DNA of 64,000 nt from Saccharothrix sp. HUAS TT1 (GTDB lineage: Bacteria; Actinomycetota; Actinomycetes; Mycobacteriales; Pseudonocardiaceae), in NCBI RefSeq assembly GCF_040744945.1, contig NZ_CP160453.1:4898001-4962000 (forward strand). The letters are read 5' to 3'. The notes beneath the pieces are model-generated. The model was not told where the DNA came from. It did no database searches and worked only from the letters and a program-made list of their open reading frames with translations. Numbering within the stretch: position 1 is the first letter of the stretch; each line of letters begins with the position of its first letter. A program made the position numbers and the translations under genes. Shown here in pieces: positions 6,457-29,055 of this stretch.

Positions 6457-6651
6457 TCAGGGCTGCACGGTGAAGCTGTAGCTCCTCTGGCCAGTGGTGA
6501 CCGCGCCGCCGGCCGCCTTGGTCGTGGTGGCCTCGAAGACGGCGGCGACCAGCGCGGTCGGCGGGCCGACCGTGTCGGTGGTGAAGACGCTGAAGTCGCC
6601 GGGCGCGCCGCGGACCTGGCGCCCAGCAGGACCGCGTTCCCACACTCGCAC
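6457..6651 (-). pseudogene. remnant of an anchored-repeat domain gene
   Basis: A 64-codon minus-strand frame in the gap between the divergent operons reads APGDFSVFTTDT and then, after a missing stretch, VFEATTTKAAGGAVTTGQR and SYSFTV. These are two pieces of the same surface domain seen in the neighbouring genes (the VEGPG.xVY segment and the YRLTFEAxA...YTFxV segment), but the H-x-H-x-NW core between them is gone. There is no signal peptide or anchor. A Zur-like site (6653-6667) sits directly upstream, as it would for a former operon gene. I read it as a deletion remnant of another surface-protein or binding-protein gene. A short functional peptide is possible but unlikely. Confidence 0.62.
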
Positions 6652-6652
6652 A

Positions 6653-6703
6653 CGGTTATCGTTTTCAGAACGGCCGGACGGCGTATTGAAAACGGTTGTC
6701 GTT
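6653..6703. promoter_or_regulatory. paired Zur-like sites upstream of the ABC operon
   Basis: Two half-conserved sites lie in tandem: GGTTATCGTTTTCA ending at 6667 (about 9/15 to TGAAAATGATTTTCA) and TGAAAACGGTTGTCG at 6687-6701 (11/15). The second is followed by TATTAGG at 6706-6712, which could be a -10 region for the + strand operon starting at 6765. Two sites about 20 bp apart would suit cooperative repressor binding. The identification rests on motif similarity only. Confidence 0.48.
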
Positions 6704-6764
6704 CGTATTAGGTTCGCCGTGCCCCCGCCGATCGGGCGACGGGTGTCTGGAGGTTCGAGAACAC

Positions 6765-8294
6765 ATGCGAGTGCGTGCGCCCTCGCGGGCCGCCGCGACC
6801 TTGTGCGCGGTCCTGCTCACCGTGACCGCGTGCACCTCGGCGGGGGAGCGGGGCGACGGCGACGGCCTGTCCGTGGTCGCCACCACCGAAATCCTCGCCG
6901 ACCTGGCGCGCAACGTCGGGGGAGGGCGCGTCCGGGTCGACTCGCTGGTGCCGCCCGGCGGTGACCCGCACTCCTACGAGCCCACGCCCGCCGACGCGAA
7001 GAAGGTCGCGGCGGCGGACGTGACGTTCACCAACCACCTGCTGCTGGAGGAGCAGCGCCTGATCAAGGCGGTCGACGCCAACGCGCGCGAGGGGACGCCG
7101 AACGTCTCGCTGGCCGAGGCGTCGGAGACCTACGGCGCGCACGTGATCCCGTTGGTGGAGGACGTCGGGCTCGACGTGCTGTGGCTCGGGCTGCGCGTGC
7201 GCGGCGACGGCGCGCAGCGCGGCGCCACCCGCACCTCCGAGGTGCGGCTGACCGCGACCGCGGTGGAGGGCCCGGGGGAGCTGGTGGCCTACCTCACCGA
7301 GTCCCTGGGCAAACCGGTGGTGTACTTCGACTCCGGCGACGGCCTGTCCGATGTGGACTCCACCACCCTGCCGCCCGCCGCGCACACCCACCTCAACTGG
7401 GCGTTCACCGAACCGGGCGCCTACCGGCTGACCCTGCGCGCGTCCCTGCTCAACGACGGCGCCGCCGAGGCGCCGCTGGGGGAGAGCACCTTCACGTTCG
7501 CGGTGGGCGTCGACCCGACCGGCATCGCGGGCACCGTGCTGGGCGAGGGGCACACCGACCTGACCGTCGACCTGGACACCGGCGAGCTGTACACGTTCAA
7601 CGACCGCGCCGGCGGCACCACGCAGCAGGTCGTGCCCGCCTCGGACGCCGTCATCGAGGTGCCGAACAAGGCCATCACGACGGTGCCCGACGACGCCCGG
7701 TTCGCGTTCCTGGGCAGCGGCGGCGCGTCGGTGCACCAGCTGCCGCAGGCGGTGCTGGGCAAGCACGTGCACGGCGAGATCGACCCGCACCTGTGGCAGG
7801 ACGTGCGCAACGGCCGCGCCTACGCCGAGCTGATCCGGGACACGCTGCGCGCCGCCGACCCCGGCGGCGCGGCGGACTACGACCGCAACACCCGCGACTA
7901 CCTGGCCCGGCTCGACGAACTGGACGCGCGGGTCCGCGAGACCGTGGCGGCCGTGCCCCGGCACCGCCGCCACCTGGTCACCACGCACGACGGGTTCGGC
8001 TACTTCGCCAACGCCTACGAGATGACCGTGGCCGGCTTCGTGGTGCCCAACCCCGCGCAGGAACCCAGCGTCGAGGACGTCCGCAAGCTGACCGAGACCA
8101 TCCGCAACCTGGAGGTGCCCGCGGTCTTCATGGAACCCAACCTCGCCCAACGCGGCTCGGTGCTCACCCAGGTCGCCCGCGACCAGGGCGTCCAGGTGTG
8201 CCTGCTGTACGGGGACTCCTTCGACGAGCGCACCCGCAGCTACGCCGACATGATGCGCCACAACGCGGAGGAGGTCGCCCGGTGCCTCGCCTGA
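6765..8294 (+). CDS. anchored-repeat ABC transporter, metal-binding lipoprotein with inserted surface domain
   Basis: 509 residues from the ATG at 6765 (GGAGG 11 nt upstream). The lipobox TVTAC puts the lipidated Cys at 23. It is a ZnuA/TroA-type metal-binding protein (family of TIGR03772): GGDPHSYEP with His69, IDPHLWQDVRN with His342, THDGFGYFANAY with His408, and YGDSFD with Asp484 as the likely four ligands. Between ligands one and two, residues of about 130-335 are foreign to ZnuA and consist of anchored-repeat domain sequence: a C-terminal half (VEGPGELVAYLT, HTHLNWAFTEPGAYRLTL, FTFAVG) followed by an N-terminal half (GHTDLTVDLDTGELYTF, FAFLGSGGASVHQLPQAV). It is the first gene of a five-gene overlapping operon. 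It captures Zn2+ or Mn2+ at the membrane. Confidence 0.9.
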   Translation: MRVRAPSRAAATLCAVLLTVTACTSAGERGDGDGLSVVATTEILADLARNVGGGRVRVDSLVPPGGDPHSYEPTPADAKKVAAADVTFTNHLLLEEQRLIKAVDANAREGTPNVSLAEASETYGAHVIPLVEDVGLDVLWLGLRVRGDGAQRGATRTSEVRLTATAVEGPGELVAYLTESLGKPVVYFDSGDGLSDVDSTTLPPAAHTHLNWAFTEPGAYRLTLRASLLNDGAAEAPLGESTFTFAVGVDPTGIAGTVLGEGHTDLTVDLDTGELYTFNDRAGGTTQQVVPASDAVIEVPNKAITTVPDDARFAFLGSGGASVHQLPQAVLGKHVHGEIDPHLWQDVRNGRAYAELIRDTLRAADPGGAADYDRNTRDYLARLDELDARVRETVAAVPRHRRHLVTTHDGFGYFANAYEMTVAGFVVPNPAQEPSVEDVRKLTETIRNLEVPAVFMEPNLAQRGSVLTQVARDQGVQVCLLYGDSFDERTRSYADMMRHNAEEVARCLA

Positions 8295-9115
8295 TCCGAG
8301 CCGTGCTCGTGGCCGCCGCGGCGCTCCTGCTCGTCCAACCGGCCGCGCACGCCGAACCGCCGGTCGTCATCGCGGACGGCCACGTCGACCTCGGCCCGCG
8401 CCTGGTCGACGGCGCGTGGACCCTCCAGCTCCGCGACGACACCGGTGCCGGGCCGGTGTGGCGCGAGCCCGCCGACGTGGTGCTCCAGGTGGCGGACGCG
8501 GCCAGGACCACCGTTCCCGACGATCCCGCGTACGCGTTCCTCGGCACGCCCGGCGCCGACGTGTGGGTGCTGCCCCAGGTCCAGGACCAGGAGGTGGTGT
8601 GGCCGGGGTGGAACACCCAGGACCCCAGCATCGCCGACGTCTCCGGCCGCGAGGTGGACTGGCGGCTGCACGACGTGCGCGGGCCCGGCCGCTTCGAGCT
8701 GTTCCTCACCGGCGCCTTCGGCGCCCCGGAGACGATCTTCAGCAGCGAGCGGCCCTACCCGCAGGAGACCGGTGTCGAGGCGGGCACCCACGTGCACGGC
8801 AACTGGGTGTTCACCGCGCCCGGCGCCTACTCGCTGGACGTGGAGATGGCCACCGCCGAGGGTCGCGGCGACCGCGCGACGCTGCGGGTGCACGTCGGGC
8901 CGGGCGACCCGGCCGCGGCGTTCGCCATGACCGGGCAGAGCGCCCCGCCCGTGGACACGACCGGGCAGAACGTCCCGCCGCCCGGCACGGCGGGGGCACG
9001 ACCCGCCGGGAACCCGCCCTGGGCGTGGATCGCGGTGGGCGGCGTGCTCGCGGCGGGGCTCGTGGCGGCGCTCGTCGCCCGTTCCCGCCGGACCGCGAGG
9101 AGGACCGGTGGCTGA
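8282..9115 (+). CDS. membrane-anchored surface protein with one anchored-repeat domain
   Basis: 277 residues from a GTG at 8282, overlapping the binding-protein gene by 13 bp, with GGAGGAGG 8 nt upstream. A signal peptide is cleaved near AHA-EP (residue 23). One complete anchored-repeat domain covers about 28-215: GHVDLGPRLVDG, YAFLGTPGADVWVLPQVQ, VVWPGWNTQDP, HVHGNWVFTAPGAYSLDV, LRVHVGPGDP. After a short Gln/Pro-rich linker there is one TM helix (WAWIAVGGVLAAGLVAALV) and a basic tail. No LPxTG is seen, so it is membrane- rather than wall-anchored. Its place between the binding protein and the ATPase suggests a direct partner of the transporter, passing metal from wall proteins to the lipoprotein (inference). 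Confidence 0.85.
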   Translation: MPRLIRAVLVAAAALLLVQPAAHAEPPVVIADGHVDLGPRLVDGAWTLQLRDDTGAGPVWREPADVVLQVADAARTTVPDDPAYAFLGTPGADVWVLPQVQDQEVVWPGWNTQDPSIADVSGREVDWRLHDVRGPGRFELFLTGAFGAPETIFSSERPYPQETGVEAGTHVHGNWVFTAPGAYSLDVEMATAEGRGDRATLRVHVGPGDPAAAFAMTGQSAPPVDTTGQNVPPPGTAGARPAGNPPWAWIAVGGVLAAGLVAALVARSRRTARRTGG

Positions 9116-9860
9116 GCCCGTGCTGGACATCACCGGAGTGACCGTGCACCTCGGTGGCCGGGAAGTCCTGTCCGCTGTGGACTTCCGACTCCGGGAGGGC
9201 GAGTTGGTCGGCCTGATCGGCCCCAACGGCGCGGGCAAGACGACCCTGCTGCGCACCGCGCTCGGCCTCGTCCCGATCCACCGGGGCTCGGTCGTCGTCG
9301 GCGGTCGCGCGCCGCGCCAGGCGCAGGGGTCGCTGGGCTACGTGCCGCAGCGCCACGAGTTCGCCTGGGACTTCCCCATCACGGTCGAGGGCGCGACGGC
9401 CACCGGCCGCACCCACCTGACCGGCCTGCTGCGCCGCCGCACGGCCCGCGACCGGGAGGCCGTGGCCGAGGCCCTGGACCGCGTCGGCATGGCGGACCTG
9501 CGGACCCGGCCGGTCGGCGAGCTGTCCGGCGGCCAGCGGCAACGCGTCCTGGTCGCCCGCGCGCTGGCCCTGCGACCGCGGGTGCTGCTGCTGGACGAGC
9601 CGTTCACCGGCATCGACGCGCCCACCCAGGAGCTGCTGAGCACGTTGCTGGCCGAACTGCGCGACGAGGGTGTGGCCGTGCTGATGACCACCCACGACCT
9701 CGCCGCCGCGACCGCGCTGTGCAGCCGGCTGTGCCTGCTCAACCGCGCGGTCGTCGCCGACGGCGAACCCGTCGCGCTGGCCGACACCGACATCTGGCTG
9801 CGCACCTTCGGCCTGGACCGGGCCGGGCAGCTGCTCAAGGCGTCGGGGGTGACCGGGTGA
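9108..9860 (+). CDS. anchored-repeat-type ABC transporter, ATP-binding subunit
   Basis: 250 residues from a GTG at 9108 that overlaps the previous stop by 8 bp. All ABC ATPase motifs are intact: Walker A GPNGAGKTT (38-46), Q-loop VPQRHEF (Gln81), signature LSGGQ (139-143), Walker B VLLLDEP (159-165), D-loop and His196 in MTTHDLAA. It resembles ZnuC/MntA-type ATPases and matches the TIGR03771 class in context. It powers metal import through the permease encoded next. It is translationally coupled on both sides. Confidence 0.93.
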   Translation: MAEPVLDITGVTVHLGGREVLSAVDFRLREGELVGLIGPNGAGKTTLLRTALGLVPIHRGSVVVGGRAPRQAQGSLGYVPQRHEFAWDFPITVEGATATGRTHLTGLLRRRTARDREAVAEALDRVGMADLRTRPVGELSGGQRQRVLVARALALRPRVLLLDEPFTGIDAPTQELLSTLLAELRDEGVAVLMTTHDLAAATALCSRLCLLNRAVVADGEPVALADTDIWLRTFGLDRAGQLLKASGVTG

Positions 9861-10747
9861 CCGCGTTCTTCGAGGCGCTGGCCGCGCCGTGGGAGTACGA
9901 CTTCTGGCGCCGGGCGCTGCTGGTGGCGCTGATGTCGGGGGTGGTGTGCGGCGTGATCGGCAGCCACGTGGTGCTGCGCGGGATGGCGTTCATCGGTGAC
10001 GCGGTCGCGCACGCGGTCTTCCCGGGCATCGCGATCGCCTTCGTGCTCGGCGCGAACCTCGTGCTCGGCGGCGCGGTCGCGGGCGTGGTCACCGCGCTGC
10101 TGATCGCGGTGTTCACCCAGAACCGCAGGCTCAAGGAGGACTCGGTCATCGGGATCTTCTTCGCCGGCTCCTTCGGCCTGGGCATCGTCATCCTCAGCAC
10201 CGCGCCCGGCTACGGCGGGTCGCTGGAGTCGTTCCTGTTCGGCTCGATCCTGGGCATCAGCGACACCGACGTGGTCTCGGTCGCGGTGATCGGGGCGGCG
10301 GTGCTGCTGTGCACGGCGCTGTTCAACAGCCGCTTCGTGGCCGCCACCCTGGACCGCGAGCAGGCCCGCGCGGTCGGCCTGCCGGTGTTCTGGCTGGACG
10401 TCGTGCTGCACGTGATGGTGACCCTGGCGATCGTCATCTCGTTGCAGGCCGTGGGCAACGTCCTGGTGCTGGCCCTGCTGGTCACGCCCGCGGCGGCGGC
10501 CCGCCTGCTCACCGACCGCCTCGGCGCGATGATGCTGCTGGCCCCGCTGATCGGCGCGGGCGGCAGCGTGCTCGGCCTGTACCTGTCCTACGCGCTCGAC
10601 CTGGCGGCCGGCGGTCTGATCGTGCTCACCCTCACCGCGATCTTCCTGCTGTGCTGGTTCTTCGCGCCGCGCCACGGCCTGCTCACCCGGAACCGCCGGA
10701 CCGCCGTTCCCGTTCCCGTCCTCGCCCTCACCGAGGAGAACCCGTGA
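9857..10747 (+). CDS. anchored-repeat-type ABC transporter, permease subunit
   Basis: 296 residues from a GTG at 9857 sharing GTGA with the ATPase stop. It is a ZnuB/ABC-3 family integral membrane protein with eight to nine predicted TM helices, including VALMSGVVCGVIGSHVVL, AGVVTALLIAVFT and GNVLVLALLVTPAAAA. Family marks include RGMAFIGDAVAHAVFPGIA near the N-terminus, the cytoplasmic EQARAVGLP helix that contacts the ATPase (about 170), and the conserved LLVTPAAAARLL segment. It is the metal channel of the operon (TIGR03770-like). Its stop overlaps the start of the decayed fifth gene. Confidence 0.93.
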   Translation: MTAFFEALAAPWEYDFWRRALLVALMSGVVCGVIGSHVVLRGMAFIGDAVAHAVFPGIAIAFVLGANLVLGGAVAGVVTALLIAVFTQNRRLKEDSVIGIFFAGSFGLGIVILSTAPGYGGSLESFLFGSILGISDTDVVSVAVIGAAVLLCTALFNSRFVAATLDREQARAVGLPVFWLDVVLHVMVTLAIVISLQAVGNVLVLALLVTPAAAARLLTDRLGAMMLLAPLIGAGGSVLGLYLSYALDLAAGGLIVLTLTAIFLLCWFFAPRHGLLTRNRRTAVPVPVLALTEENP

Positions 10748-17358: not shown

Positions 17359-17688
17359 GTGGAGGACGACGTCCGCGAGGATTCGCTGAGCCTTTTCGGA
17401 GAGGTGCTGCGCTGGCGGCTGGTCGGCGACCGGTGGCACGCCGTCCACCGGTCCCTGGACGACCTGGCGACGGCGCTGGCGCGAGGTGACTCCGACGCCT
17501 TCCGGGAGGTGCTGTGTGAACTGGAGCTGGCCGGCCCGGTGCGCGTCGTTCCTGTCGAGGGCGCGTCGGACCTCCCCGTCCCGGAGCGGGTCCGGGAGCG
17601 GATCAACCAGCTGGTCCACGCGTTGGAAGACGTCGACCGGATCGACCGGCGGCCCGAGGGCACCGAGGACACCACCACCGCGCGTTGA
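17359..17688 (+). CDS. small protein of the CHAT/TPR conflict module (CATRA-associated-like)
   Basis: 109 residues from a GTG at 17359, chosen because a -10-like box ends just upstream; a GTG/ATG at 17269 would add 30 residues with no clear structure. The protein is soluble and helical: SLFGEVLRWRLVGDRWHAV, LDDLATALARGDSDAFREVL, ELELAGPVRVVPVEG, and an end of VRERINQLVHALEDVDRI. It has no catalytic motif. Together with the next gene and the CHAT protease it resembles the three-part CATRA-type systems described in computational work on bacterial conflict proteins; that match is by recollection. It is likely an adaptor or sensor. Confidence 0.68.
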   Translation: MEDDVREDSLSLFGEVLRWRLVGDRWHAVHRSLDDLATALARGDSDAFREVLCELELAGPVRVVPVEGASDLPVPERVRERINQLVHALEDVDRIDRRPEGTEDTTTAR

Positions 17689-19111
17689 GGCCCTTGTCGT
17701 CCACCTGTTCGTCGCCGCCGACGGCCCGCACCGCGCCGCGGACGTCGAGTGGCTGCGGAAGACGTGGCAGGCGTGCGGGAACGTGCTCGGCATGACCGAA
17801 CCGGTGGCGGGCATCGCCCTCGACCCCGGAGCGGGCTGGGACGGTGGCGCCGGTCGGTCGGCGAGGCTGCTGGCGGCGCGGTCGCGGCCGGGTGGCGGGG
17901 TGCACCAGGCGGTGCTGCGCCGCGAGCACGACGTGTTCTGCCTGTCGGTGGTGCTGGAGCCGGAGCCCGCCGAGGGCGTCGGCTGGGGTGTGCTGGACGA
18001 CCGGTGGTCGGCGGTGGCGCCCGAGCCGTCGCCGGGGCTGCTCGGTGTGGCGCGGCTGTTCCTGGGCCGCACGGCGGACCCGGTGGTGTCGCCGGAGGCC
18101 GTTCGGACCGGTGTCCCCGCCGCTCCGGGCGCGCCGGTCGCCTGGGGGGAGCGCGGGATCACCGCGCCCGGGGGGTTCGCGGTCTGGGAGGCGTCGGCGT
18201 CGGCCGACACCCGGCTGGAACGGCGGCTGGTCGTGCTGGCGGCGGAGGACCGGGACGCCGAGTTGAGCGCGTGGACGTGGATCGGGGCCGGGCTGGAGCT
18301 GCCGCCGCTGGCGAAGTACCTGCTGCACGCGGCGAAGTTGCGCTACCAGCTGCGCGTCTGGGAGGCCGCCCGTGGTTTCCGGGACCTGCGCGGCGAGGCC
18401 GACGCGACCATCCGGGAGCTGCTGGCGGCGGTGCGGCCCGAGGCCGGGTCGGGTCGGGCGGACCTGGTGGCGGCGGCGCGTGAGCTGACCTCCCTGCAGG
18501 CGCGGGAGCTGGGTCTGATCGACCAGGCGACCCGGCTCCGCGAGATGTGCCGCACGGTCGACATCGCGACCGCCAACCTGGCGGCCCTCGCCGGCGACGG
18601 GCTCGGCGGGCCGTTCGCCGACGACCGCGAACTGGCCCGGTGGTTCGCCCACCAGCTCGACGACGACGCGACCTACCTGGAAGCGGTGTTGCAGCGGGCC
18701 ACCCAGGTGGGCGCGTTGATGGACCAGCTCGTGCAGCGCGGCAGGCAGCAGCGCCAGGAGAGCATCAACCTCGGGCTGACGGGGTTCGTCGGGGCGATCC
18801 TGATGAGCCTGGCCGCGATCCAGTCGCTCCAGTACAGCGTGCCGCTGCCCACGCCGGTCAAACCGGCCGTCGTCGCCGTGCTGGGCGGGTTGGCGCTCCT
18901 CGTGTCGGTGGTGGTGCTGCGGATCGTCGTGCCGGACCGGCGCTGGTCGCTGGCCCTCGTCCACGCCGGGGTCGGCCTGGTGGGCGGGACGCTGGGGTGG
19001 GTCGTGGCGGCGGCGTTCGCCGTCGGCGGGGGCTGGACCTGGGCCGCCGCCGGGCTCGGCCTGGTGCTGGGGAGCGGGACGGCCGCGCTGGTGACCAGGT
19101 TCAGGCGCTGA
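17516..19111 (+). CDS. membrane protein of the CHAT/TPR conflict module (CATRA-type)
   Basis: The core, EALVVHLFVAADGPHRAAD onward, begins at about 17687 and runs for 475 residues. No ATG, GTG or TTG lies in frame just before it: the codons there are CGC GTT GAG GCC CTT. The nearest upstream start in frame is the GTG at 17516, inside the small gene, and that is used here with reserve. The N-terminal 200 residues form an alpha/beta domain; the central part is helical, with a coiled coil (LTSLQARELGLIDQATRLREM trimmed) and the conserved SINLGLTGFVGAILMSLAA. The C-terminus has four TM helices (LGGLALLVSVVVLRIVV, AGVGLVGGTLGWVVAAAFAV and others). It is probably the membrane-acting effector, released by the CHAT protease encoded convergently. 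Effector role is inference. Confidence 0.72.
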   Translation: MNWSWPARCASFLSRARRTSPSRSGSGSGSTSWSTRWKTSTGSTGGPRAPRTPPPRVEALVVHLFVAADGPHRAADVEWLRKTWQACGNVLGMTEPVAGIALDPGAGWDGGAGRSARLLAARSRPGGGVHQAVLRREHDVFCLSVVLEPEPAEGVGWGVLDDRWSAVAPEPSPGLLGVARLFLGRTADPVVSPEAVRTGVPAAPGAPVAWGERGITAPGGFAVWEASASADTRLERRLVVLAAEDRDAELSAWTWIGAGLELPPLAKYLLHAAKLRYQLRVWEAARGFRDLRGEADATIRELLAAVRPEAGSGRADLVAAARELTSLQARELGLIDQATRLREMCRTVDIATANLAALAGDGLGGPFADDRELARWFAHQLDDDATYLEAVLQRATQVGALMDQLVQRGRQQRQESINLGLTGFVGAILMSLAAIQSLQYSVPLPTPVKPAVVAVLGGLALLVSVVVLRIVVPDRRWSLALVHAGVGLVGGTLGWVVAAAFAVGGGWTWAAAGLGLVLGSGTAALVTRFRR

Positions 19112-19121
19112 TCCCGTCGGG

Positions 19122-22100
19122 TCAGCGCCCGTAGTAGACGAAACCGGCCCAGTGGTACGGGTGGGAGTGGCGGCGGGTCGTGCGCATCCACCACTGCGCC
19201 CTCCGCAGGGACTCGGCGGGCGGGAGGCCCGATCGCCAGTGCTCGTAGAAGCGTTCGACCAGCAGCGCGGCGCTGCGGTCGTTGACCGGCCACAGGGTGC
19301 CGATCACCCCGGCGACGCCGCAGGACATCAGCATGGCGGGGAAGCCGAGCGCTTCGTCGACCCACGAGTCCGAGAACGCCGAGTCGCACGCGGACAGGAT
19401 CGCGAGCCTGAGGTGGTCCAACCGCTTGCGGGCGAGGTCCCGGACGGCCAGCCGGTGCCCGCCGCTCAGCAGCATGGCGCTGTCGGCGAGCACCGAGAGG
19501 TTCAGGACGCCGTGGCAGGCGAGGTGGAGCGCGGTGTAGTCGGGGATCAGGCGGAAGATCTCGGCCGGGGTCGCCGCGGCTCCGGTGAGGAGCAGGGACC
19601 GGGGGTGGGTCGTCGCCGCGCGCAGCTCCGGCAGGGTCCACGGCAATCGCGCGCCCTCGGGGTCGCCGACGGCCAGGACCGCGTCCGGCGCGGTGTCGAC
19701 CGGGTCCGCCGCGACGACGGACGCGGTCGGCGCGTAGGTGATCAGGCAGCTGTCCGACCAGTGGACGCGCTCACCGTCCGCGCCGGTGGTCCAGGCCGCG
19801 TGCCACGGCATGTGCGAGGTGATTCCCACCGGGACGAGGACGATGGCCTCGACGTCGGGCAGCGCCGCGGCGAGTCGTGACACCGCGACGTCCCAGAGCC
19901 ACCGGGTGGTCGAGTCCAGTCGGTCCGCGTGGCGGCGGGCGTCGACGACCCGTCCCGATTCGGCGGTCAGGTACTCGTGCAGGTGCTGGTGGAACGAGTC
20001 CGCGTCGAGGTCCGGCAGCGCCAGGGCGCGGACGCCGTCGGGGCGCGCTATGAAGGCGAAGCCACCGCTGGGCGCGGTGATCAGGTAGACGATCGGGGAG
20101 GCCGCCGCTTTGGCGTGCACTTCGCGGATGCCCGGCCTGCGGAGGAAGCTCGCGAGACCGGGTAATCGGCGGACCTCCTCGCTCAGGGACGCTACCTCGG
20201 CCCGGACGGCGAGCAGCGCCGACGCGGTGGCCGTGACGGAGTCGGGGGACCGGGTCAGGACGGCCTGCAGCTCGGTCGAGCGCTCCCGCGCGGCCAGCCA
20301 CTCGCCGTGCAGGGCGGGGTCGAGGTCCGAGAGGAGGGCGAGGTCGGCCGAGTCCCGGTCCATCACGTCGTCGAGCCACAGGCAGCGCGACTCCTCCAGC
20401 GCGGCCACGGCCGCGACGCCGTCGCCCACCATCCCGCACGCGTAGGCCATGCGCTCCGCGTAGTCGCGCATCTGCTCGACCACCGCGCGCCGTTCCGCCG
20501 CGGTGTGCTGGTCCCGGTACCACTGGTCCAGCAACGAGCCGGCGTGCTCAAAGGCCTCGACCACCTCCGGCCAGTCCCCGCGCCGTTCCGCCCAATGCGC
20601 CCACGCGTCGACGCACCGCCACGTCGCCTCGGTGGCCCCCACACCGCGCGCGGTCGCGCGGGCGCGTCGGTAGACCTCCTTCGCGCGGGCCAGGTCCGGG
20701 TCTGATCCCGTCCGGTCGGCTCGGGCCGCGAGCGCGCGGGCCAGGTTGGAGGTGCGCACCAGGCCGGACCAGGCGAACCCCGCGGACTCGTCGGTCGTGG
20801 ACTCGTGCAGCCGGACGGCGCGGTCCAGGTCGGTGGTCGCCCCGGTCGCCTCGTAGCGCGACAGGAGGCAGGTCGCGAGGCTGACCACGTGTCCCGGCTT
20901 GATCGGGCTCGTGTCCGGTTCCTCCGCCAGCAGGTGTTCGAGGTGGCCGATCGCCGCGTCCAGGTCGGCCGGTTCGTCGCGGAGGATGGCGCGGAGCGCC
21001 AACGACAGCGCGAGGTTGTTCCGCGCGCCGTAGCGGGTCGTGGCCCAACCGCGCTCGGAGTCGATCAGCTCTTGGAGGACGTCGACGGACTCGTCCAGGG
21101 CCTCCTCGTCGTTGGTCGCCTCGCAGAGCTGCCGCAGGACGTTCCCGAGGGCGCTGACCCTCCTCGGCCACGGGGACTCGGACCGCCCGGTGGCGGCGAC
21201 GCTGCGCCGGTGGAGGTCGACCGCCGCCCGCAGGAACGCCAGGACGCCGGTGAACGCGTAGCTGTCGCTCATGGCCCGGCCGAGGTTGTGCCGGGCGCGG
21301 GCGGTTTCGCCGGGGTGGTCCGCCGCGGCGTCGACCACCAGCGTGAGGACTTCCCGCGCCTGCGAGAGGTCTTTCGGGTCGGCGCCGCGCTGGGCGCGAT
21401 CCCTCAGCCCGGTGCCCAGGCCGGTCGCCGCCACCCTCCACTCCGGCGAAGCCGGGTCGAGCTCGTCGGCCAGGGAGCGGCAGATGTCGATCCTGCGCTC
21501 CAGGTCCGCGAGTTCGCCCCAGCCCGAGTACCGGTCGTCGAGGACTCCCGACAGGTTGAGCAGCGCGCGCACGGCCACGCTCCGCGTCCGGCCGGTCGCG
21601 GCGGCGCGTTCGAAGCATTCCACCGCTCGGTCGACGTCCGCCAACAGGGCGTTCCGCTGGTAGCGGTCGTGGTGGGCGTTGCCGATCGCGAAGTGGGTGT
21701 CGGCCTGGCCGTCGGGGTCGGCGGTCAGGAACGGGGTCGAGGCGGCGACGCCCGGGTACAGCTCCACGAGGGCGTCGCGCCGGCTCGTGCCGGGCGCCCA
21801 CGCCGAGTCGACCAGTCCGACGCAGGCGGGCGGGAACGACGAGTGGGGGAACGCCACCTCGAAGTCCACCTCGGCCGCCGCCGCTGCCGCTCCGACCTCG
21901 GCGCAGCGGACGAGCAACCGCCGGATGTCGCGGAGGCGACCGCCGACGGCCTTGTTGTTGTCCCGGAGGATCGAGTCGATCGTGGTGAGGCTGCGGGTCA
22001 GCCCGGCTCCGGTGTGCAGGTCGGCGTGGTCGGTCAGGAACGCCGTCAGCGCGGTGCGGTCGTGGTTGCCGAGCAGCCGGAGCAGGTTCGTGGTCCACGC

Positions 22101-22388
22101 GTCCGCCTCGTGGGGGAGGGAGACCACCGCGGCGTGGTCCACGAGCAGCATCGTGTGCCGCATCAGCGGAATCGCTCGCCTTTGTTCGGCGGTGCCCCGT
22201 CGTTCGAGTTCGGCGAGGATCGCCCCGGCGAAGTCCCGCATCGCCTCGCTCAACAGCCAGAGGTGCTGCAGCAGGTAGTCCCTGACCTCGATCCAGGTGG
22301 ACGCGAAGCGCAGCCCGGCCAGGTGGCGGAGCAGCTCGTCGACCTCCACCTCGCGCTGCTGCCCGTCCACCGCCACGGGGTCGAGCAT
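19122..22388 (-). CDS. TPR-CHAT domain protein (caspase-like protease)
   Basis: 1088 residues from an ATG at 22388. This start is preferred over upstream frames because MLDPVAVDGQQREVEVDELL opens the helical N-domain, and the sequence before it belongs to a broken oxidase gene. Residues about 20-230 are helical; 250-720 carry TPR-like repeats (FAIGNAHHDRYQRN, ALGNVLRQLCEATNDEEALDE, YGARNNLALSLAL). The last 290 residues are a CHAT protease: SGGFAFIARPDGV, IVLVPVGITSHMPWHA, His959 in LHLACHG and Cys1001 in ILSACDSA, then GVIGTLWPVND. The His-Cys dyad is intact, so it should be an active cysteine protease. CHAT proteins act in caspase-like defence, and its partner here is probably the adjacent membrane protein. 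Confidence 0.85.
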   Translation of the reverse strand: MLDPVAVDGQQREVEVDELLRHLAGLRFASTWIEVRDYLLQHLWLLSEAMRDFAGAILAELERRGTAEQRRAIPLMRHTMLLVDHAAVVSLPHEADAWTTNLLRLLGNHDRTALTAFLTDHADLHTGAGLTRSLTTIDSILRDNNKAVGGRLRDIRRLLVRCAEVGAAAAAAEVDFEVAFPHSSFPPACVGLVDSAWAPGTSRRDALVELYPGVAASTPFLTADPDGQADTHFAIGNAHHDRYQRNALLADVDRAVECFERAAATGRTRSVAVRALLNLSGVLDDRYSGWGELADLERRIDICRSLADELDPASPEWRVAATGLGTGLRDRAQRGADPKDLSQAREVLTLVVDAAADHPGETARARHNLGRAMSDSYAFTGVLAFLRAAVDLHRRSVAATGRSESPWPRRVSALGNVLRQLCEATNDEEALDESVDVLQELIDSERGWATTRYGARNNLALSLALRAILRDEPADLDAAIGHLEHLLAEEPDTSPIKPGHVVSLATCLLSRYEATGATTDLDRAVRLHESTTDESAGFAWSGLVRTSNLARALAARADRTGSDPDLARAKEVYRRARATARGVGATEATWRCVDAWAHWAERRGDWPEVVEAFEHAGSLLDQWYRDQHTAAERRAVVEQMRDYAERMAYACGMVGDGVAAVAALEESRCLWLDDVMDRDSADLALLSDLDPALHGEWLAARERSTELQAVLTRSPDSVTATASALLAVRAEVASLSEEVRRLPGLASFLRRPGIREVHAKAAASPIVYLITAPSGGFAFIARPDGVRALALPDLDADSFHQHLHEYLTAESGRVVDARRHADRLDSTTRWLWDVAVSRLAAALPDVEAIVLVPVGITSHMPWHAAWTTGADGERVHWSDSCLITYAPTASVVAADPVDTAPDAVLAVGDPEGARLPWTLPELRAATTHPRSLLLTGAAATPAEIFRLIPDYTALHLACHGVLNLSVLADSAMLLSGGHRLAVRDLARKRLDHLRLAILSACDSAFSDSWVDEALGFPAMLMSCGVAGVIGTLWPVNDRSAALLVERFYEHWRSGLPPAESLRRAQWWMRTTRRHSHPYHWAGFVYYGR

Positions 22389-22391
22389 GCC

Positions 22392-23109
22392 AGACCCGTC
22401 CGTCGCGGTAGGCGGACTTGTAGTCGGCGCGCCGGTTCCAGGTGCCCTGGCCCAGTTCGTGGGTGGCGTTGAGCCACGGGCGGGCGGCCCAGTGGTCCAG
22501 GGCGCGGGGCTTGGTGGCCGCCGAGGAGACGGTGAGGACGGCGCCGAGGAAGTCCTTGAGCGTGGCGCGGGCGCGGAGCGGTGCTCGCACCAGTGGCCGA
22601 AGCGGCGCAGCACCGCGGCCGGCTCGACGCCTGCCGGACCGACCTCGTCCCACGGGATGGTGATGTCGTGCAGCAGCACCTGCCTCGCGGCGCGACAGCA
22701 GCCCGTACCCGCCGCCGACGATGTGCCCGCCCGCCCCGACGGTGGCGCACGACCCGCCGGGGAGGGTGGCGCCCCACCGGCGGTGCAGCTCGAGGTGGAC
22801 GTCCCACAGGCCCTGCCCGGGGCCGACGGCGACGCAACCGGTCACCGGGTCGTGCTCCACCGCGCGCAGCAGGCCGAGGTCGACCACGGCGCGGACCGAG
22901 GAGTTGAACACGTGGTCCTCGTAGCAGTGGCCGCCGCTGCGCACGGTGAAGCGCCGCCCCTCGCCGACCAGCCCCCGCACGCAGGCCGCGACCTCGCCGG
23001 CGTCGCGGGGGAGGTGCACCTCGTCCGGGGTCCCGACCCAGCGCAGGTCGCTGCCCTGCACCAGGTCCGGGTAGCGCACGTCATGCCTGTCGACCCCGTG
23101 CACGGTCAT
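22392..23109 (-). pseudogene. broken FAD-binding (BBE-type) oxidoreductase gene
   Basis: From an ATG at 23109 the first 150 codons encode a normal PCMH FAD-binding half: DLRWVGTPDEVHLPRDAGE, TVRSGGHCYEDHVFN (the His and Cys that bind flavin covalently in this family), GVAVGPGQGLW-like VGPGQGLWDVHLELHRRWG and GGHIVGGGYGLLSR. About 22680-22700 the frame breaks and roughly 80 residues are missing, then HDITIPWDEVG appears in another frame, and ATLKDFLGAVLTVSSAATKP and NRRADYKSAY in the first frame again. The C-terminal substrate (BBE) half is absent: the reading ends at about 22395, seven bases from the CHAT start codon. The gene was an oxidase of about 500 residues. The CHAT module appears to have replaced its 3' end. 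Confidence 0.82.
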
Positions 23110-23129: not shown

Positions 23130-26100
23130 TCAGGCCGGCGTGGTCGGCGGCGTCGGTGCGTCGGGGGTGCTGATCGGGCGGCGCTGGTGCTGGTGCTGGT
23201 GGTCGGGGAACATGCTGATGAAGTACTCGCTCCAGCCGCCCATGCGGACGCGCAGCAGGTCGTACTGCTCGGGGTCGCGGCGCGCGGCGGTCATGGTGGC
23301 GGGGTCGGCGCAGGTGATGGTCAGCAGGTTGGAGCCGGTGCCGCGGGCGAACTCCTCGACGACCTCGACCAGGGCGCCGTGGGGGAAGTCCTCGCGGATG
23401 TTGAAGTCGGTGGGCGCGGCGTCCCACAACGCCTCCGCGCCGTCGCCGGTGAAGCCGCGCAGTGAGGCGAGGATGCCCTTCTCCTGGTGGTCGACGGGCA
23501 GGTCGGCCGGGCTGGGCACGGGGCTGAGGTCGGAGGTCAGGGTCTCACCGCGCCGCCGCCCCTCGGGGGAGGCCCCGGTGGCCGCGCCGAACTCCAGGTA
23601 GTTCTCGAAGGTGCCCACGCCGGGCTGGAGCTGGACGCCGAAGGGGTGCTCCGGGGTGCCGATGCGCTCGGCCAGCTCGACCATCGTGCGGGCGGTGGGG
23701 GGAGCGGGTCGGGTGAGGACGGAGACGACGGTGTCGGAGACGCGGCGCAGGAACCGGTTGCCGAAGTCGTCGACGTCCTTGTCGCCCCGGCCGTAGCGGG
23801 GCAGCTTCAGCGCGGCCTTGCGAAGGTCCCGGAACCGCTCGGCGTGGGCGGCGATGCGGCCGGCACCCACCGTCGAGTTGGTGAAGGGCTCGGCCATCGA
23901 CTCGCCCCAGTCGCACATCAGCGCCTCGACCAGCTCGGGCAGCGAGGTGGCGGCGGTGGTGGGTTCGTAGACCAGGTGGTTGATGGCCAGCAGCGAGTTG
24001 ATGGCGTTCGGCAGGGCGATCAGTCCGGGCGCGATCACGTTGTAGCGGGCGCCGCCCGCGTAGTAGTCCAGCCCGGTCTCGATGCAATCGTCGATGAAGC
24101 AGGACAGCAGCGGTGACGGGCACACGTCGCTCATCTGCCCGAACGCCGCCAGCTGGCCGTCGACCTGCTTGGCGTACATCCAGCGCACGTGCTGGAAGTA
24201 CAGCTCCAGCAGCTGTTCGAAAGAGGTGATCTCGGCGGGCTTGGGCGAGGTGAACGACACCTTCTGCCCCCGGAAGTACATCGGCCCGGCGGTGAGCCAG
24301 GACTTGCCCTGGTTGAGGGTGGCCTCCAGCACGTGCAGCATGTTGACCTGGCCGAGGGTGAACCAGTTCTTGCCGACGAACTGGGGTTCGTAGCACCCGT
24401 CGCAGGCGTAGTCGCGGGCCACGTCCAGGGGCACCTCGCTGCGCCAGAGCCCCCCGGCCTTCTCCCGCACGGGCGTGAACTCGGTGCGGTCGTCGCCGTC
24501 GCCGATGCCCTCGCCGCTGCGCACCAGCCCGGGGATGATCTTGGCGTCGTTGAGCAGGATGGGGTGCGCGCCGCCGCTGAGCAGCGCGCGGGCGGCTTCC
24601 TCGGCGTACTCGCGGGGCATGTCCGGTCGCACGCGCAGCGACAGGCAGGGCGCGTTGAGCGGCAACCGGCGGGCCGCGAGCAGGCAGAGCATCGTCGTGT
24701 CGTTGTAGGCGGGCGTGCCCTCGCCGGGCGCGCCGTCGGCCAGCGTCCCGCCGACGGTGACCTGCTGGACCCACTGGTTGTTGGCGCCGCCCTGCGGGTA
24801 GTTGCCGCTGAAGCCGCCCATGGCCATGTTGCCGAAGGGCTGGTGGTCCTCGACGAACGTCCGGTTCCACAGGACCTTCTCGCCGAGCTTGACCCACAGG
24901 CAGTCGATCACCTCCTGCGCCTGCTCGTCGGTGATCAGCCCGAGCCCGCGGTCGTTGGCGCGGAAGGGCTCCAGCATCTGGTCGAGGCGGCCGATGGCGG
25001 TCGGCTCGCCCACCAGGTGCAGGCAGGAGTGCAGGGTGAAGATCAGCTGCGCGGCTTCGAGGAGCGTGTCGGGCGGCTGGTGGGCCAGCTTGCGCATCCG
25101 GCCGTGGATGGCCAGCAGGTTCTCCAGCTCGGCCCGCTGGGACGGCCGGGTGTCGTGGGCGAGCTGGGCGGCCAGGTCGGCGAAGGCCAGGCAGTGGTCG
25201 CTGACGCCCTCCAGGGCCAGCACGACCGCGCGGTAGAACTGCCGCTTGCCCTCGTCGTCGGTGCTGTCGAGCTTGGCCGTCACCTCGGAGATCAGCCCGT
25301 CCAGGCCCTTGTCCAGCAGGCGCTGGTGGTCCGGGACGACGTGCCCGACGCCGGAGGCCGCGCTGAGGCCGCGGAAGAAGTTCTGCAGCTGCTCGTCCTC
25401 GCGGGTGTAGTCGATGACGTGCTTGCCCTGGCCGAGACCGAGGTTGGGCATCCCGCCGACGATCAGCTCGGCCGGGTCGATGTGGTAGGTGTCGGCGCCG
25501 TTGACGGTCCGGCCGTTCTCGTGCCGCCGGCCGCGGAACCCGTAGTCGTGGCTCGCGAACACCCGGCCCAGGCCGATCTTGATGGTCCAGCCCATGCGCT
25601 CCACCACCGGCAGGGCCATCACCCTCCGGGCCTGCTCGACCCCGGCGTACCGCTCGACGTAGGCCGACAGGTGCTCCAGCTCCTGCTGGGCGCGGTCGAA
25701 GTACCAGCCGTCCTGCCACCGGGAGAACGTGCTCTCCAGCAGCCGCAGCACCCGGCCCGAGGGCGGCCGGCAGTGCTCCCGCTGGTCGGCGGGGAGCGTG
25801 GACATGCGGTGCAGGTAGTCGTGGTGGTTGTAGTACATGTAGCCGTTGGTCGAGCGCCGGTCGAAGTGCCGGTCCAACCTCTCCCAGTCCACGCCCGGGA
25901 ACGCCTCCCACGACCGCGTCAGGTCCGGCACCGGCGTGGGGTCCAGCCGCAGGTTGAGCTGGCTCGGGATGAAGTAGAACCCGCCGAGGTCCGACCGCAC
26001 GTTGGACAGCAGCCGGTCGGCCATGAACCCGTCGGTCCGCCCGATCTGCTGGTCCATGATCTTCTCCAGCGTCGCGACCGAGTTGGCGAAACCGGCGAAG

Positions 26101-27083
26101 TAGATGCCCCGCTCGTCACGGCGGCTGGCGCCCTTGGCCAGCATGTCCTCGTCGTCGAGGGCGGCCGAGCTGCCGTAGGGCAGGCTCAGCCGCAGCAGCG
26201 GGGTGGTGTCGCCCGCCTCGTCCTGCGCGCGCGAGCGGCTGAGGTGGCTGCGGTCGTCGCGGGACGGGATGATGATGTCGTCCGCGGTGCGCCCGACCAG
26301 GTCCTCGATCTGGTCGGGGTTCATGTTCAGCAGGTTCGACCAGTTGATGGTGAAGCGCTGCGCCAGCACGAACGACGCGCCGAGGTACCCGGGGTCGTCC
26401 AAGCCGACCAGGGTGTGCTTCTGGAAGCTGACCGGGCTGGTCGGGTTGTTCAGGTTCTCGGAGAAGCGGCAGCCCACGACCTTGCCGCCCCGCTTGTCGT
26501 CGCGCACCGACTTGGTGGCGGCCTGCTGGTGCGCGGTCCTGGAGGTATCGACGCGGCCGGTGCGGGCCAGTTCCCCGCTGAGCAGTTCGAACACCGCGGG
26601 GCAGTGCCCCTCCTCGTCGGACTTGATGTGGAACCACAGGTCCCCGCCGGAGTCCACGAAGGTGCCGTTCGAGCGCTCGAACACCTTCGACGGGGCGAAC
26701 CCCGCGTCCGCTCCCCGCTCGCCGGAGGGGAAGCGCATCCGCATCCCCCTGGGCGGCTCCACCCCCTCTTCACGGCACCACTCCTGCCACAGGCGGAACC
26801 CGACCCCGGTGACGACGGTGGTGTTGGAGCTGCCGAAGTTCGCGTGGATCTCCTCCCGCAACCTCGCCAGGATCTCGGACACCTGGGCCAGCGTGGGCGC
26901 CAGGTCGTCCGCGGCGCGCCAGAAGGTCGCGAACACCGCGTACGGGGACGGGTAGATCAGGCCACGCTGCACGTGTTCCCACACGTCGTGCCCGACAGGA
27001 CCGTCGGCGGCGGCGAACAGGTCCGGCACCTCCGGGGCGTCCGGGTCGGTCGGTGTCCCGGTGTGCGACTCCTGCAGCGTCAA
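23130..27083 (-). CDS. DyP-peroxidase-like / glycyl-radical enzyme (PFL family) fusion
   Basis: 1317 residues from a TTG at 27083 with GGAGGAAG about 6 nt upstream. Residues 50-385 resemble a DyP-type peroxidase: GGDLWFHIKSD, RSHL with the presumed haem ligand His280, LLRLSLPYG with Arg298, and a GIYFAGF...FYFIPS end. The usual catalytic Asp of GxxDG is replaced (FSEN, Glu209). Residues about 440-1317 are a complete pyruvate formate-lyase-type glycyl-radical enzyme: ACDGCYEPQF with Cys897 and Glu899 (as in GCVEP dehydratases/lyases), DDCIETGLDYYAGGARYN, and VRMGGWSEYF with radical Gly1283. No radical-SAM activase gene lies in the window. The reaction is unknown; GCxEP suggests a diol-dehydratase- or lyase-like activity. 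The C-terminal tail is His/Gln/Pro-rich. The fusion is very unusual in an aerobe. Confidence 0.88.
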   Translation of the reverse strand: MTLQESHTGTPTDPDAPEVPDLFAAADGPVGHDVWEHVQRGLIYPSPYAVFATFWRAADDLAPTLAQVSEILARLREEIHANFGSSNTTVVTGVGFRLWQEWCREEGVEPPRGMRMRFPSGERGADAGFAPSKVFERSNGTFVDSGGDLWFHIKSDEEGHCPAVFELLSGELARTGRVDTSRTAHQQAATKSVRDDKRGGKVVGCRFSENLNNPTSPVSFQKHTLVGLDDPGYLGASFVLAQRFTINWSNLLNMNPDQIEDLVGRTADDIIIPSRDDRSHLSRSRAQDEAGDTTPLLRLSLPYGSSAALDDEDMLAKGASRRDERGIYFAGFANSVATLEKIMDQQIGRTDGFMADRLLSNVRSDLGGFYFIPSQLNLRLDPTPVPDLTRSWEAFPGVDWERLDRHFDRRSTNGYMYYNHHDYLHRMSTLPADQREHCRPPSGRVLRLLESTFSRWQDGWYFDRAQQELEHLSAYVERYAGVEQARRVMALPVVERMGWTIKIGLGRVFASHDYGFRGRRHENGRTVNGADTYHIDPAELIVGGMPNLGLGQGKHVIDYTREDEQLQNFFRGLSAASGVGHVVPDHQRLLDKGLDGLISEVTAKLDSTDDEGKRQFYRAVVLALEGVSDHCLAFADLAAQLAHDTRPSQRAELENLLAIHGRMRKLAHQPPDTLLEAAQLIFTLHSCLHLVGEPTAIGRLDQMLEPFRANDRGLGLITDEQAQEVIDCLWVKLGEKVLWNRTFVEDHQPFGNMAMGGFSGNYPQGGANNQWVQQVTVGGTLADGAPGEGTPAYNDTTMLCLLAARRLPLNAPCLSLRVRPDMPREYAEEAARALLSGGAHPILLNDAKIIPGLVRSGEGIGDGDDRTEFTPVREKAGGLWRSEVPLDVARDYACDGCYEPQFVGKNWFTLGQVNMLHVLEATLNQGKSWLTAGPMYFRGQKVSFTSPKPAEITSFEQLLELYFQHVRWMYAKQVDGQLAAFGQMSDVCPSPLLSCFIDDCIETGLDYYAGGARYNVIAPGLIALPNAINSLLAINHLVYEPTTAATSLPELVEALMCDWGESMAEPFTNSTVGAGRIAAHAERFRDLRKAALKLPRYGRGDKDVDDFGNRFLRRVSDTVVSVLTRPAPPTARTMVELAERIGTPEHPFGVQLQPGVGTFENYLEFGAATGASPEGRRRGETLTSDLSPVPSPADLPVDHQEKGILASLRGFTGDGAEALWDAAPTDFNIREDFPHGALVEVVEEFARGTGSNLLTITCADPATMTAARRDPEQYDLLRVRMGGWSEYFISMFPDHQHQHQRRPISTPDAPTPPTTPA

Positions 27084-27244
27084 GGGTCTTCCTCCAGTGC
27101 CCGGATCGACACCGCGTCGACCACCGGTCGATGCTCGCAGGGGCGGCCTGCCGCGTGCGCCTGCCACAACGCGCATGACTCGACAGGGGAATCTCTTGGC
27201 ACCATAGGGGAATGCGGAGGACTCGACGTGGCCGCAGTGGCTAC

Positions 27245-27319
27245 GGGGCGTGCTCGACGTTCGCTCTTCGGGTGTCGCGAATGCACCTGCGGGTGCGGCC
27301 GCCTTGGTCTTGGATGGCC
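27245..27319. repeat. 75-bp direct repeat, copy 1
   Basis: Starts GGGGCGTGCTCGACG and ends CTTGGTCTTGGATGGCC. It is 72/75 identical to 28059-28133, in the same orientation. It contains a CACC-TGCG-GGTG hairpin near its middle. It lies 3' of the secreted-protein gene at 27366 (minus). No ORF of its own is convincing. Confidence 0.85.
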
Positions 27320-27333
27320 CGTTGGAGGTCTTG

Positions 27334-27367
27334 GAGCCGGCGGCCGCACCACCTTCGGCGCCGGCTC
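27334..27367 (-). terminator. hairpin at the 3' end of the secreted-protein gene
   Basis: A 9-bp perfect stem (27334-27342 with 27359-27367) with a 16-nt loop begins at the stop codon of the gene at 27366-27899, a plausible rho-independent-like terminator. Confidence 0.5.
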
Positions 27368-27899
27368 ACGGGGTGACGATCTCCAGGACCACCTGGCCGT
27401 ACAGGGCGGACAGGGCGCCGAGGCCCAGGTTGCACAGCAGGATGTTCTGGCTGGGGTAGACGATGGTGTGCACGAACGTCGCTCCCGCGAACACGCCCGA
27501 CGTGACCGTGCCGGTGGTGACGACGGTCAGGGCCACGCCGCTCAGGCTCGACACGTTGTTCCCGGACAGGACGGACGTCTGACCGGTGTTCCAGGTGATC
27601 GGGATGGTGATCGCGTTCGCGCCGAGCAGGCTCAGGCAGGTCGCGCCCGAGGAGGTGCCGGTGGCGGTCGAGTGGCCCGAGGTGATGTCCGGGTGCGTGG
27701 CCGAGACGCACGGGCCGTACTGCCGGGACACCGTGAGCCCCACGGTCTGCGGGGAGTTGGTCGCGGGCGGGTCGAACAGCAGGCTCGCGCTGCTGGGCGG
27801 GGTGCACGTGAGGTCGAGACCGGCGGCGGTGGCCGTGCCGGGCGTGACGAGCGCGACGAGCACCAGCAACGCGGCGAGGGCGGAGGCGACTCGGGACAT
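27366..27899 (-). CDS. secreted protein of unknown function
   Basis: 177 residues from an ATG at 27899, with a clear signal peptide (MSRVASALAALLVLVALV, cleavage near ATA-AG). The mature part of about 150 residues is Ser/Thr-rich, has six Cys and no acidic cluster (LTCTPPSSASLLFDPPA, TVGLTVSRQYGPCVSA, FVHTIVYPSQNILLCNLG), giving a predicted beta-sandwich. I know no family with certainty. Copies of the 75-bp repeat flank it at 27245 and 28059, so it might have moved or duplicated as a unit. Confidence 0.72.
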   Translation of the reverse strand: MSRVASALAALLVLVALVTPGTATAAGLDLTCTPPSSASLLFDPPATNSPQTVGLTVSRQYGPCVSATHPDITSGHSTATGTSSGATCLSLLGANAITIPITWNTGQTSVLSGNNVSSLSGVALTVVTTGTVTSGVFAGATFVHTIVYPSQNILLCNLGLGALSALYGQVVLEIVTP

Positions 27900-28058
27900 G
27901 CGAGATTCCCCTTTCCGAACACATTTCCGCAGAAATGCGGATTCGATGGCGTCGGCATTGTTCTATCGCGCACCGAAAAGATCTGTTACGCGGGACGGGC
28001 GGGTCGCTCGACCCCGCCGGCCCGGGGTCGGATGACGCCGAGTGGCCACAGCGGGTGC

Positions 28059-28133
28059 GGGGCGTGCTCGACGTTCGCTCTTCGGGTGCCGCGAACGCAC
28101 CTGCGGGTGTGGCCGCCTTGGTCTTGGATGGCC
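28059..28133. repeat. 75-bp direct repeat, copy 2
   Basis: Differs from copy 1 (27245-27319) at three positions. It lies directly 3' of the MmyB-type regulator gene (stop at 28150, minus) and upstream of the secreted-protein gene. Both copies are just downstream of minus-strand genes or at gene ends, a position typical of dispersed extragenic elements. Confidence 0.85.
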
Positions 28134-28149
28134 GGTCCGGCCACCCCGG

Positions 28150-29055
28150 TCACGAGGACGGGCCGGGCGAGCGCGGCAGCGACCGCGCCGGAGCGCCGGC
28201 CCCCGGCGAGGCGGCCCAGGACGCGAGCAGCCGCAGCGCCTCCTCGGACGGGGAACCGGGTTCCGCGGCGTAGACGGTGAGGGTCAACCCCGGCTCGGCC
28301 GCCATCTCCAGGCCCTCGTAGGCGAGGGTGAGCTCGCCGACGACGGGGTGGTGGAAGGTCTTGGAGCCGGTGCCGTGGTGGCGCACGTCGTGGGCGCCCC
28401 ACCGGCGGCGGAACTCGTCGCTGCGGGTGGACAGCTCGCCGACCAGGTCGTGGAGGTCCCTGTCGTGCGGGTTGCGCCCGGCCTCGGTGCGCAGGATGGC
28501 GACGCACGTGTCGGCGAAGAGGTCCCAGTCCGGGTGGAACCGGTGGGACGCGGGGTCCAGGAACTGGAACCGCGCCAGGTTCGGCGGCTGCTGGGGGAGC
28601 GCGTGCAGCGGGGAGTGGAAGGCCCGCGCGAGGGCGTTGGAGGCCAGCAGGTCCATGCGGCCGTTGCGGACGAACGCCGGACCGGCGGTGATCGCGTCCA
28701 GGGTCCACTGCAGGCTGGGGTGCGGCGCCCAGTGCCGGGTCCTGCTCCGGCGCGGGCGCACCAGGGCGCTCGTGCCGTCGGCGGCCCGCGCCAGGTCGAA
28801 CAGGTGGGCGCGTTCCGCCTCGTCGAGCCGGAGGGCGCGCGCGACGGCGTCCAGCACCCCCGCCGAGACCCCGGCGAGCGCACCGCGTTCCAGCTTCGAG
28901 TAGTACTCGACGCTCACCCCGGCCAGCACCGCGACCTCGGTGCGGCGCAGACCGGGCACGCGGCGGTTGCCGCCGGAGGGCAGGCCGGCCTGGTGTGGGG
29001 TGACCCTGGCCCGCCGCGAGACGAGGAACTCGCGAACTTCGGAGCGGTTGTCCAC
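28150..29055 (-). CDS. XRE/MmyB-type transcriptional regulator
   Basis: 301 residues from a GTG at 29055, the usual VDNRSEVREFL opening of this family; an ATG at 29106 would add 17 low-complexity residues. The helix-turn-helix (VPGLRRTEVAVLAGVSVEYY, SKLERG) covers about 35-80. The MmyB-like ligand-binding domain follows: LDAITAGPAFVRNGRMDLLA, FHPDWDLFADTCVAILRTEA, HHPVVGELTLAYEGL, GLTLTVYAAEPGSP. Such regulators usually control an adjacent oxidoreductase. Here the divergent gene, 212 bp away, is a zinc alcohol dehydrogenase, so it is the likely target. Confidence 0.88.
   Translation of the reverse strand: MDNRSEVREFLVSRRARVTPHQAGLPSGGNRRVPGLRRTEVAVLAGVSVEYYSKLERGALAGVSAGVLDAVARALRLDEAERAHLFDLARAADGTSALVRPRRSRTRHWAPHPSLQWTLDAITAGPAFVRNGRMDLLASNALARAFHSPLHALPQQPPNLARFQFLDPASHRFHPDWDLFADTCVAILRTEAGRNPHDRDLHDLVGELSTRSDEFRRRWGAHDVRHHGTGSKTFHHPVVGELTLAYEGLEMAAEPGLTLTVYAAEPGSPSEEALRLLASWAASPGAGAPARSLPRSPGPSS

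Follow-up and report, generated by a model that had tools for sequence, protein, structure and literature searches.

The 64,000-nucleotide stretch of DNA analysed here (the window; from the soil bacterium Saccharothrix sp. HUAS TT1, contig NZ_CP160453.1, positions 4,898,001 to 4,962,000) encodes, in a TTG-start coding sequence on the minus strand (23130-27083), a single 1317-residue polypeptide that joins a DyP-type haem peroxidase to a glycyl-radical enzyme (GRE). The two folds lie in one conserved gene, both active sites are kept, genomes whose only GRE is the fusion hold no recognised activase, and no conserved neighbour accompanies the gene. GREs are taken to require a radical-SAM activase and anoxia; the activase generates a glycyl radical, which is then passed to an active-site Cys. 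Because this usual activating partner was not found in the genome, the peroxidase half may do the activation with H2O2. We thus propose, as our preferred reading but short of calling it probable, that the DyP haem uses H2O2 to oxidise the GRE domain, a task that would otherwise fall to a radical-SAM activase.

Two complete folds in one conserved protein

The presence of a complete B-type-like DyP haem-peroxidase fold and a complete GRE fold in one protein is confirmed. The N-terminal domain (residues ~38-385; 25929-26972, minus strand, like all positions of the gene given below) matches the DyP profile and the DyP fold, the C-terminal domain (residues ~433-1305; 23169-25787) has the barrel of pyruvate formate-lyase (PFL)-like enzymes, and the two pack confidently in one predicted model (pTM 0.91). 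The gene is preceded by a Shine-Dalgarno-like GGAGGAAG (27088-27095), 4 nt ahead of the TTG. An assembly chimaera was ruled out: a search of 5.8 billion proteins returned 384 homologues, and since all the 120 listed carry both Pfam domains, the fusion is not an assembly error. The one intact gene read in a first-pass annotation, made from the sequence alone, therefore stands, and the fused architecture, which that annotation had proposed to look for in other genomes, recurs in multiple bacterial phyla and a fern.

Conservation was read from an alignment of the window protein with the 120 listed homologues (n = 121), in which His280, Arg298, His581, Cys897 and Glu899 are invariant. Cys897 (24393-24395), in GCYEP, occupies the thiyl position and Glu899 (24387-24389) the general-base position of CxE-type GREs, while Gly1283 (23235-23237), at the glycyl-radical position in the loop R-M-G-G-W-S, is kept in 118/121 sequences, as is Trp1284; in the three exceptions the C-terminus fails to align across the loop. 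All three catalytic positions align with their counterparts in GREs of solved structure, which upholds both the Cys/Glu pair and the radical glycine of the first-pass annotation. DGCYE and R-x-GGW are retained even in relatives of 38-42% identity (Asticcacaulis, genome G787 and Hymenobacter). The glycine loop of the fusion family, R-[MT]-GGW-[ST], stands in place of RVSGY / RVxGY and is unlike that of activase-dependent GREs in the same hosts; the PF01228 glycine-radical domain falls below its cut-off (14 vs 22.2 bits), and the GRE domain lies under every curated NCBIfam GRE cut-off. Dehydratases rank above class III ribonucleotide reductase and PFL among the structural matches listed, and the Cys-x-Glu motif points, at the level of sequence, toward dehydratase/lyase chemistry. 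An ordinary PFL was ruled out as the GRE type by the single Cys followed by Tyr-Glu and by the dehydratase-type best matches. No known substrate is predicted, because the Asp that follows the Cys motif in glycerol dehydratase has no aligned Asp in the fusion.

In the peroxidase domain, His280 (26244-26246) aligns with the proximal haem ligand and Arg298 (26190-26192) with the distal Arg of DyPs. The GXXDG motif with its catalytic Asp is absent, Glu209 (26457-26459) standing at the position of the Asp in 120/121 sequences (one gap); the DyP assignment and the Asp-to-Glu exchange, both noticed at first pass, thus hold across the family. In comparisons with three congeners the DyP part has a dN/dS of 0.24-0.39, the GRE part one of 0.14-0.27 and the linker one of 0.51-0.84, and the low values in the first two imply that both halves are under purifying selection.

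The search for an activase

The absence of a nearby radical-SAM activase, remarked on at first pass, extends from the locus to the whole genome (8.7 Mb, 2 contigs, 99% complete), where the fusion is the one PF02901 protein and profiles recognise no cognate activase: TIGR02494, the GRE-activase model, scores no higher than 15.9 bits, its cut-off being 174. The 17 radical-SAM matches of this genome correspond to 16 proteins, 12 of which reach curated thresholds for other families (MoaA, MiaB, PqqE, HemW, TIGR03960, BioB, RimO, LipA, CofGH, FxsB, RlmN and arginine 2,3-aminomutase). The other four (L067, L074, L077 and L078) lie under every family cut-off, and no activase family appears among the matches listed for the host radical-SAM proteins (the best 25 for L064 and L067). 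L067 occurs in 8/8 tested genomes of the genus, six of which lack the fusion, and in 0/9 fusion genomes of other groups, and L074 in its own genome alone (1/17); neither is supported as a hidden activase, since their occurrence does not follow the fusion.

The same pattern emerges from 16 fusion genomes (15 distinct, G257 being the same as G046). TIGR02494 scores over its cut-off in four (G006, G009, G151 and G260), exactly those that hold a second full-length PFL-type GRE (PF02901); the two PF02901 matches in G132 are pieces of its broken fusion. In each of the four the activase lies at most 1 kb from the second GRE, whose loop reads RVSGYAV, and the remaining 12/16 (11 distinct) have no activase over the cut-off. 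TIGR02494 is also below cut-off in G787, with a fusion of ~41% identity, and in G923, with a fragment. As a control, confined to the TIGR02494 search, the model passed its cut-off in 4/4 genomes holding canonical GREs; across 14 named control genomes, PF02901 was positive in three and the activase model over cut-off in three. The first-pass annotation had named activation from a distant gene and unconventional activation as possibilities: the genome-wide lack of a recognised activase, the altered loop and the orphan state of the gene favour the latter over a guard role of the peroxidase, without proving it.

Distribution, unfused relatives and gene neighbourhood

The homologues are spread over Actinobacteria (Saccharothrix, Actinosynnema, Actinoalloteichus, Actinophytocola), Myxococcota (Corallococcus, Archangium, Polyangium, Nannocystis), Cyanobacteria, Proteobacteria (Reyranella, Hahella, Xenorhabdus, Chromobacterium) and the fern Ceratopteris richardii, and the aerobic type of host, unexpected for a GRE at first pass, is borne out. 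The fern protein is 55% identical, lies on a 186-Mb contig and appears to reflect a transfer into plants; used as a query it returned 440 homologues, and it has relatives of 77-86% identity, some from EukProt (P0079, P0055, P0056 and P0067). Occurrence is sparse: 4/25 genomes of the genus, 10/249 of the family, 2/282 of the Myxococcota-type phylum of G258 (both seeds) and, in the phylum of G260, 6/398 matches (fusions in the seed and G787, the GRE part alone in three, and the G923 fragment). A scan of genome contigs gave five loci. A tblastn search of plasmids matched 35 records, where Asticcacaulis (42%) alone covers at least 80% of the query and a Hymenobacter record (38%) matches the GRE part. 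The tree (118 sequences, six of the 121 shorter than 1240 residues being dropped and three added, rooted by hand on Asticcacaulis) places the window gene beside Saccharothrix; sets A1, A2 and A3 comprised 98 of the 120 listed homologues, 93 and 50 (including P0125 from the fern-query search).

One congener holds only short remnants (L010 and L012; G010:C1:311229-311549), pieces of 82-85% identity with an internal stop, which is a recent loss; in another family member the gene is broken across two frames (L028 and L029; G132:C5:300476-304346). An intact fusion of ~50% identity occurs at 6627-10550 of an IMG/VR contig (L101, IMGVR_UViG_3300043778_000135), filed as viral but possibly host DNA, its flanking open reading frames (ORFs) being host- or transposon-like.

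The Hymenobacter GRE, used as a query with a length filter that keeps fusions out, revealed an unfused sister family of 502 proteins, nearly all full-length members among the 120 listed being ~820-860 residues long (P0127-P0245). They come from Hymenobacter, Sphingomonas, Mesorhizobium, Ensifer, Rhizobium, Flavobacterium, Lacipirellula, Haloferula and also Acidobacteriota; the genera are mostly known as aerobes. With the query left out (119 of the 120 listed), the Cys/Glu pair is present in 119/119 sequences; 116 have the GGW loop and three are gapped at that point. On the Hymenobacter cellulosilyticus plasmid NZ_CP095048.1 (L086, 8109-11448) the GRE, in two pieces, is followed 11 bp downstream by a separate DyP gene, both frames being broken in the record, with no annotated activase within 18.5 kb. 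The Hymenobacter DyP keeps a GXXDG-type Asp, so splitting the fusion would not by itself give this pair.

No neighbour family is common to more than 3 of 14 loci compared over 20-25 kb each (window 13001-38000, L015-L018, L050-L052 and L054-L059, leaving out L014 and L024, on short contigs, and L053, whose genome is already represented by L015), and the other ORFs common to many loci overlap the fusion gene in other frames. No conserved operon partner was thus found, and such an orphan gene suits a self-sufficient unit that spreads alone. In the window, an ORF for the N-terminal ~140 residues of a FAD_binding_4 oxidase (22680-23109, minus strand) begins 21 bp past the fusion stop; it looks like a truncated remnant because its third-position GC collapses beyond ~22683, which ruled it out as a supplier of H2O2. 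Further along, a CHAT-domain protein (19122-22679, minus strand; PF12770, 159 bits) faces a CATRA-N/CATRA-C protein (17486-19111, plus strand), a possible conflict or defence pair. Upstream of the fusion, a small ORF whose start resembles a signal peptide (27241-27924, minus strand) is flanked by a near-identical direct repeat of ~90 bases, located by eye (ggccatccaagaccaaggcggcc...gagcacgcccc; ~27230-27325 and ~28035-28150). On the Asticcacaulis plasmid NZ_CP084912.1 (L087, 6855-11870) a SUMF1/EgtB-type gene lies 30 bp upstream of the fusion.

Proposed activation by peroxide, its rivals and known systems

We infer haem binding, peroxide use, radical transfer, a radical on Gly or Cys, the type of reaction and the kind of substrate as follows. 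H2O2 would convert the DyP haem (His280/Arg298/Glu209) to a ferryl/radical state, the hole would reach the GRE barrel by way of conserved Trp/Tyr residues, for which the invariant Trp456, Trp460, Trp771 and Trp1059, together with Trp1284, are candidates by sequence, and it would there oxidise either Gly1283, the neighbour of Trp1284, or Cys897 itself. A thiyl radical on Cys897 could then abstract an H atom from a small substrate in the manner of a dehydratase or lyase, Glu899 serving as the base. DyPs do form ferryl haem with H2O2, and holes can move to Tyr/Trp at about 1 V (PMC10646903). Somewhat more guardedly, we suggest that a fused or adjacent haem peroxidase makes a GRE-type protein radical from H2O2 as a third, activase-free start in aerobes, carried by a single self-sufficient gene that has passed among bacteria, fungi and a fern, the unfused GGW GREs being the two-protein version.

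Several observations weigh against activation by the peroxidase: (i), the distal loop of the DyP model (200-210) is of low confidence. (ii), TIGR02494 and PF04055 would miss a diverged or unrelated activator, and candidate partners remain in the lysine-aminomutase-like L077 and L078 and in sub-threshold radical-SAM matches of 33-37 bits in other fusion genomes. (iii), Chromobacterium alticapitis (L018, 18007-22288) has a complete focA-pflB-pflA set ~4 kb downstream of its fusion, with a serine dehydratase in between, and a putative PFL activase is reported for Chaetomium cochliodes, a fungus with the fusion, in PMC5041501. (iv), the gene context of the sister family comes from one locus, and thousands of unfused relatives may exist. 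(v), a glycyl radical would still face O2. Point (iii) and the four host proteins under all family cut-offs, together with the conserved Gly1283 and its loop, would also fit if an unrecognised or shared radical-SAM enzyme activated the GRE conventionally and the DyP domain had a separate role. We nevertheless hold this unlikely: 12/16 fusion genomes lack an activase over cut-off and the four with a canonical GRE have theirs beside that GRE, no activase was seen near the fusion gene, two of the four unassigned host proteins (L067 and L074) do not track the fusion, and the loop differs from RVSGYAV.

The other explanations leave the peroxidase out of activation. Glycyl radicals are cleaved by O2 rather than H2O2, which counts against a DyP domain that clears H2O2 or organic peroxides and so shields a radical made by another route; this guard would fit the conserved DyP active site and the peroxide induction of the fungal gene, whose transcript rises 3-fold with H2O2 and 18.5-fold with peroxyacetic acid (PMC5041501), yet it offers no account of how the GRE is activated where a genome has no activase, and we consider it quite improbable. 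We give little credence to a two-step catalyst, in which the DyP oxidises a substrate and the GRE rearranges or cleaves the product, or the reverse: a substrate relay would also predict both the fusion and the Hymenobacter gene pair, but no pathway genes accompany the fusion gene and the missing activase stays unexplained. Equally doubtful to us is a GRE fold that carries no protein radical and so needs no activase, acting as a Cys/Glu enzyme of non-radical type or as a scaffold. The sub-threshold PF01228 match, the lack of a recognised activase and the aerobic-type hosts would all agree with it, whereas Cys897, Glu899 and Gly1283 are all retained in very distant fused and unfused relatives, and the GRE domain is the more strongly constrained of the two.

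The architecture is not new, because a DyP-PFL fusion was reported in 2016 (PMC5041501) in Chaetomium cochliodes and "distantly related prokaryotic & eukaryotic genomes"; the paper gives it no function and cites a 2014 encyclopaedia chapter for it. Like the window protein, the Chaetomium one has an N-terminal DyP, called type B there, and a C-terminal PFL/glycyl-radical domain, a likeness of architecture; it differs in its putative activase, none being recognised in the window genome. As far as our searches show, neither the activase test nor the loop signature nor the DyP-linked unfused sister family is described in the literature searched, which covered few subscription papers, and no other paper on the fusion came up there. 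Here is a large GRE clade of aerobic-type hosts that keeps the radical residues and is linked to a haem peroxidase, with no activase recognised, which raises the question of whether peroxide chemistry can start glycyl/thiyl radical catalysis in air. Peroxide-driven, activase-free activation of a GRE would be new; if true, it would bring GRE reactions such as dehydration and the cleavage of C-N and C-C bonds within reach of aerobic metabolism and of biotechnology.

Compared with the CxE-type GREs (B12-independent diol/glycerol dehydratase, CutC, PflD/YbiW and HypD), the fusion has a GGW loop where they have xGY, a fused or paired DyP, no recognised activase gene and aerobic-type hosts. It differs from the B-type DyPs (DtpB, DypB and KpDyP) by Glu for the GXXDG Asp, by Ser for the Asn after the Arg and by being joined to a GRE. 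An analogy may be drawn with the ribonucleotide reductases: the fusion would stand to ordinary GREs as the class I enzyme, activated by peroxide/O2, stands to class III, and GREs would thereby gain a counterpart of the class I solution, with the differences that the oxidant would be a haem peroxidase and that the glycine is still conserved in the fusion.

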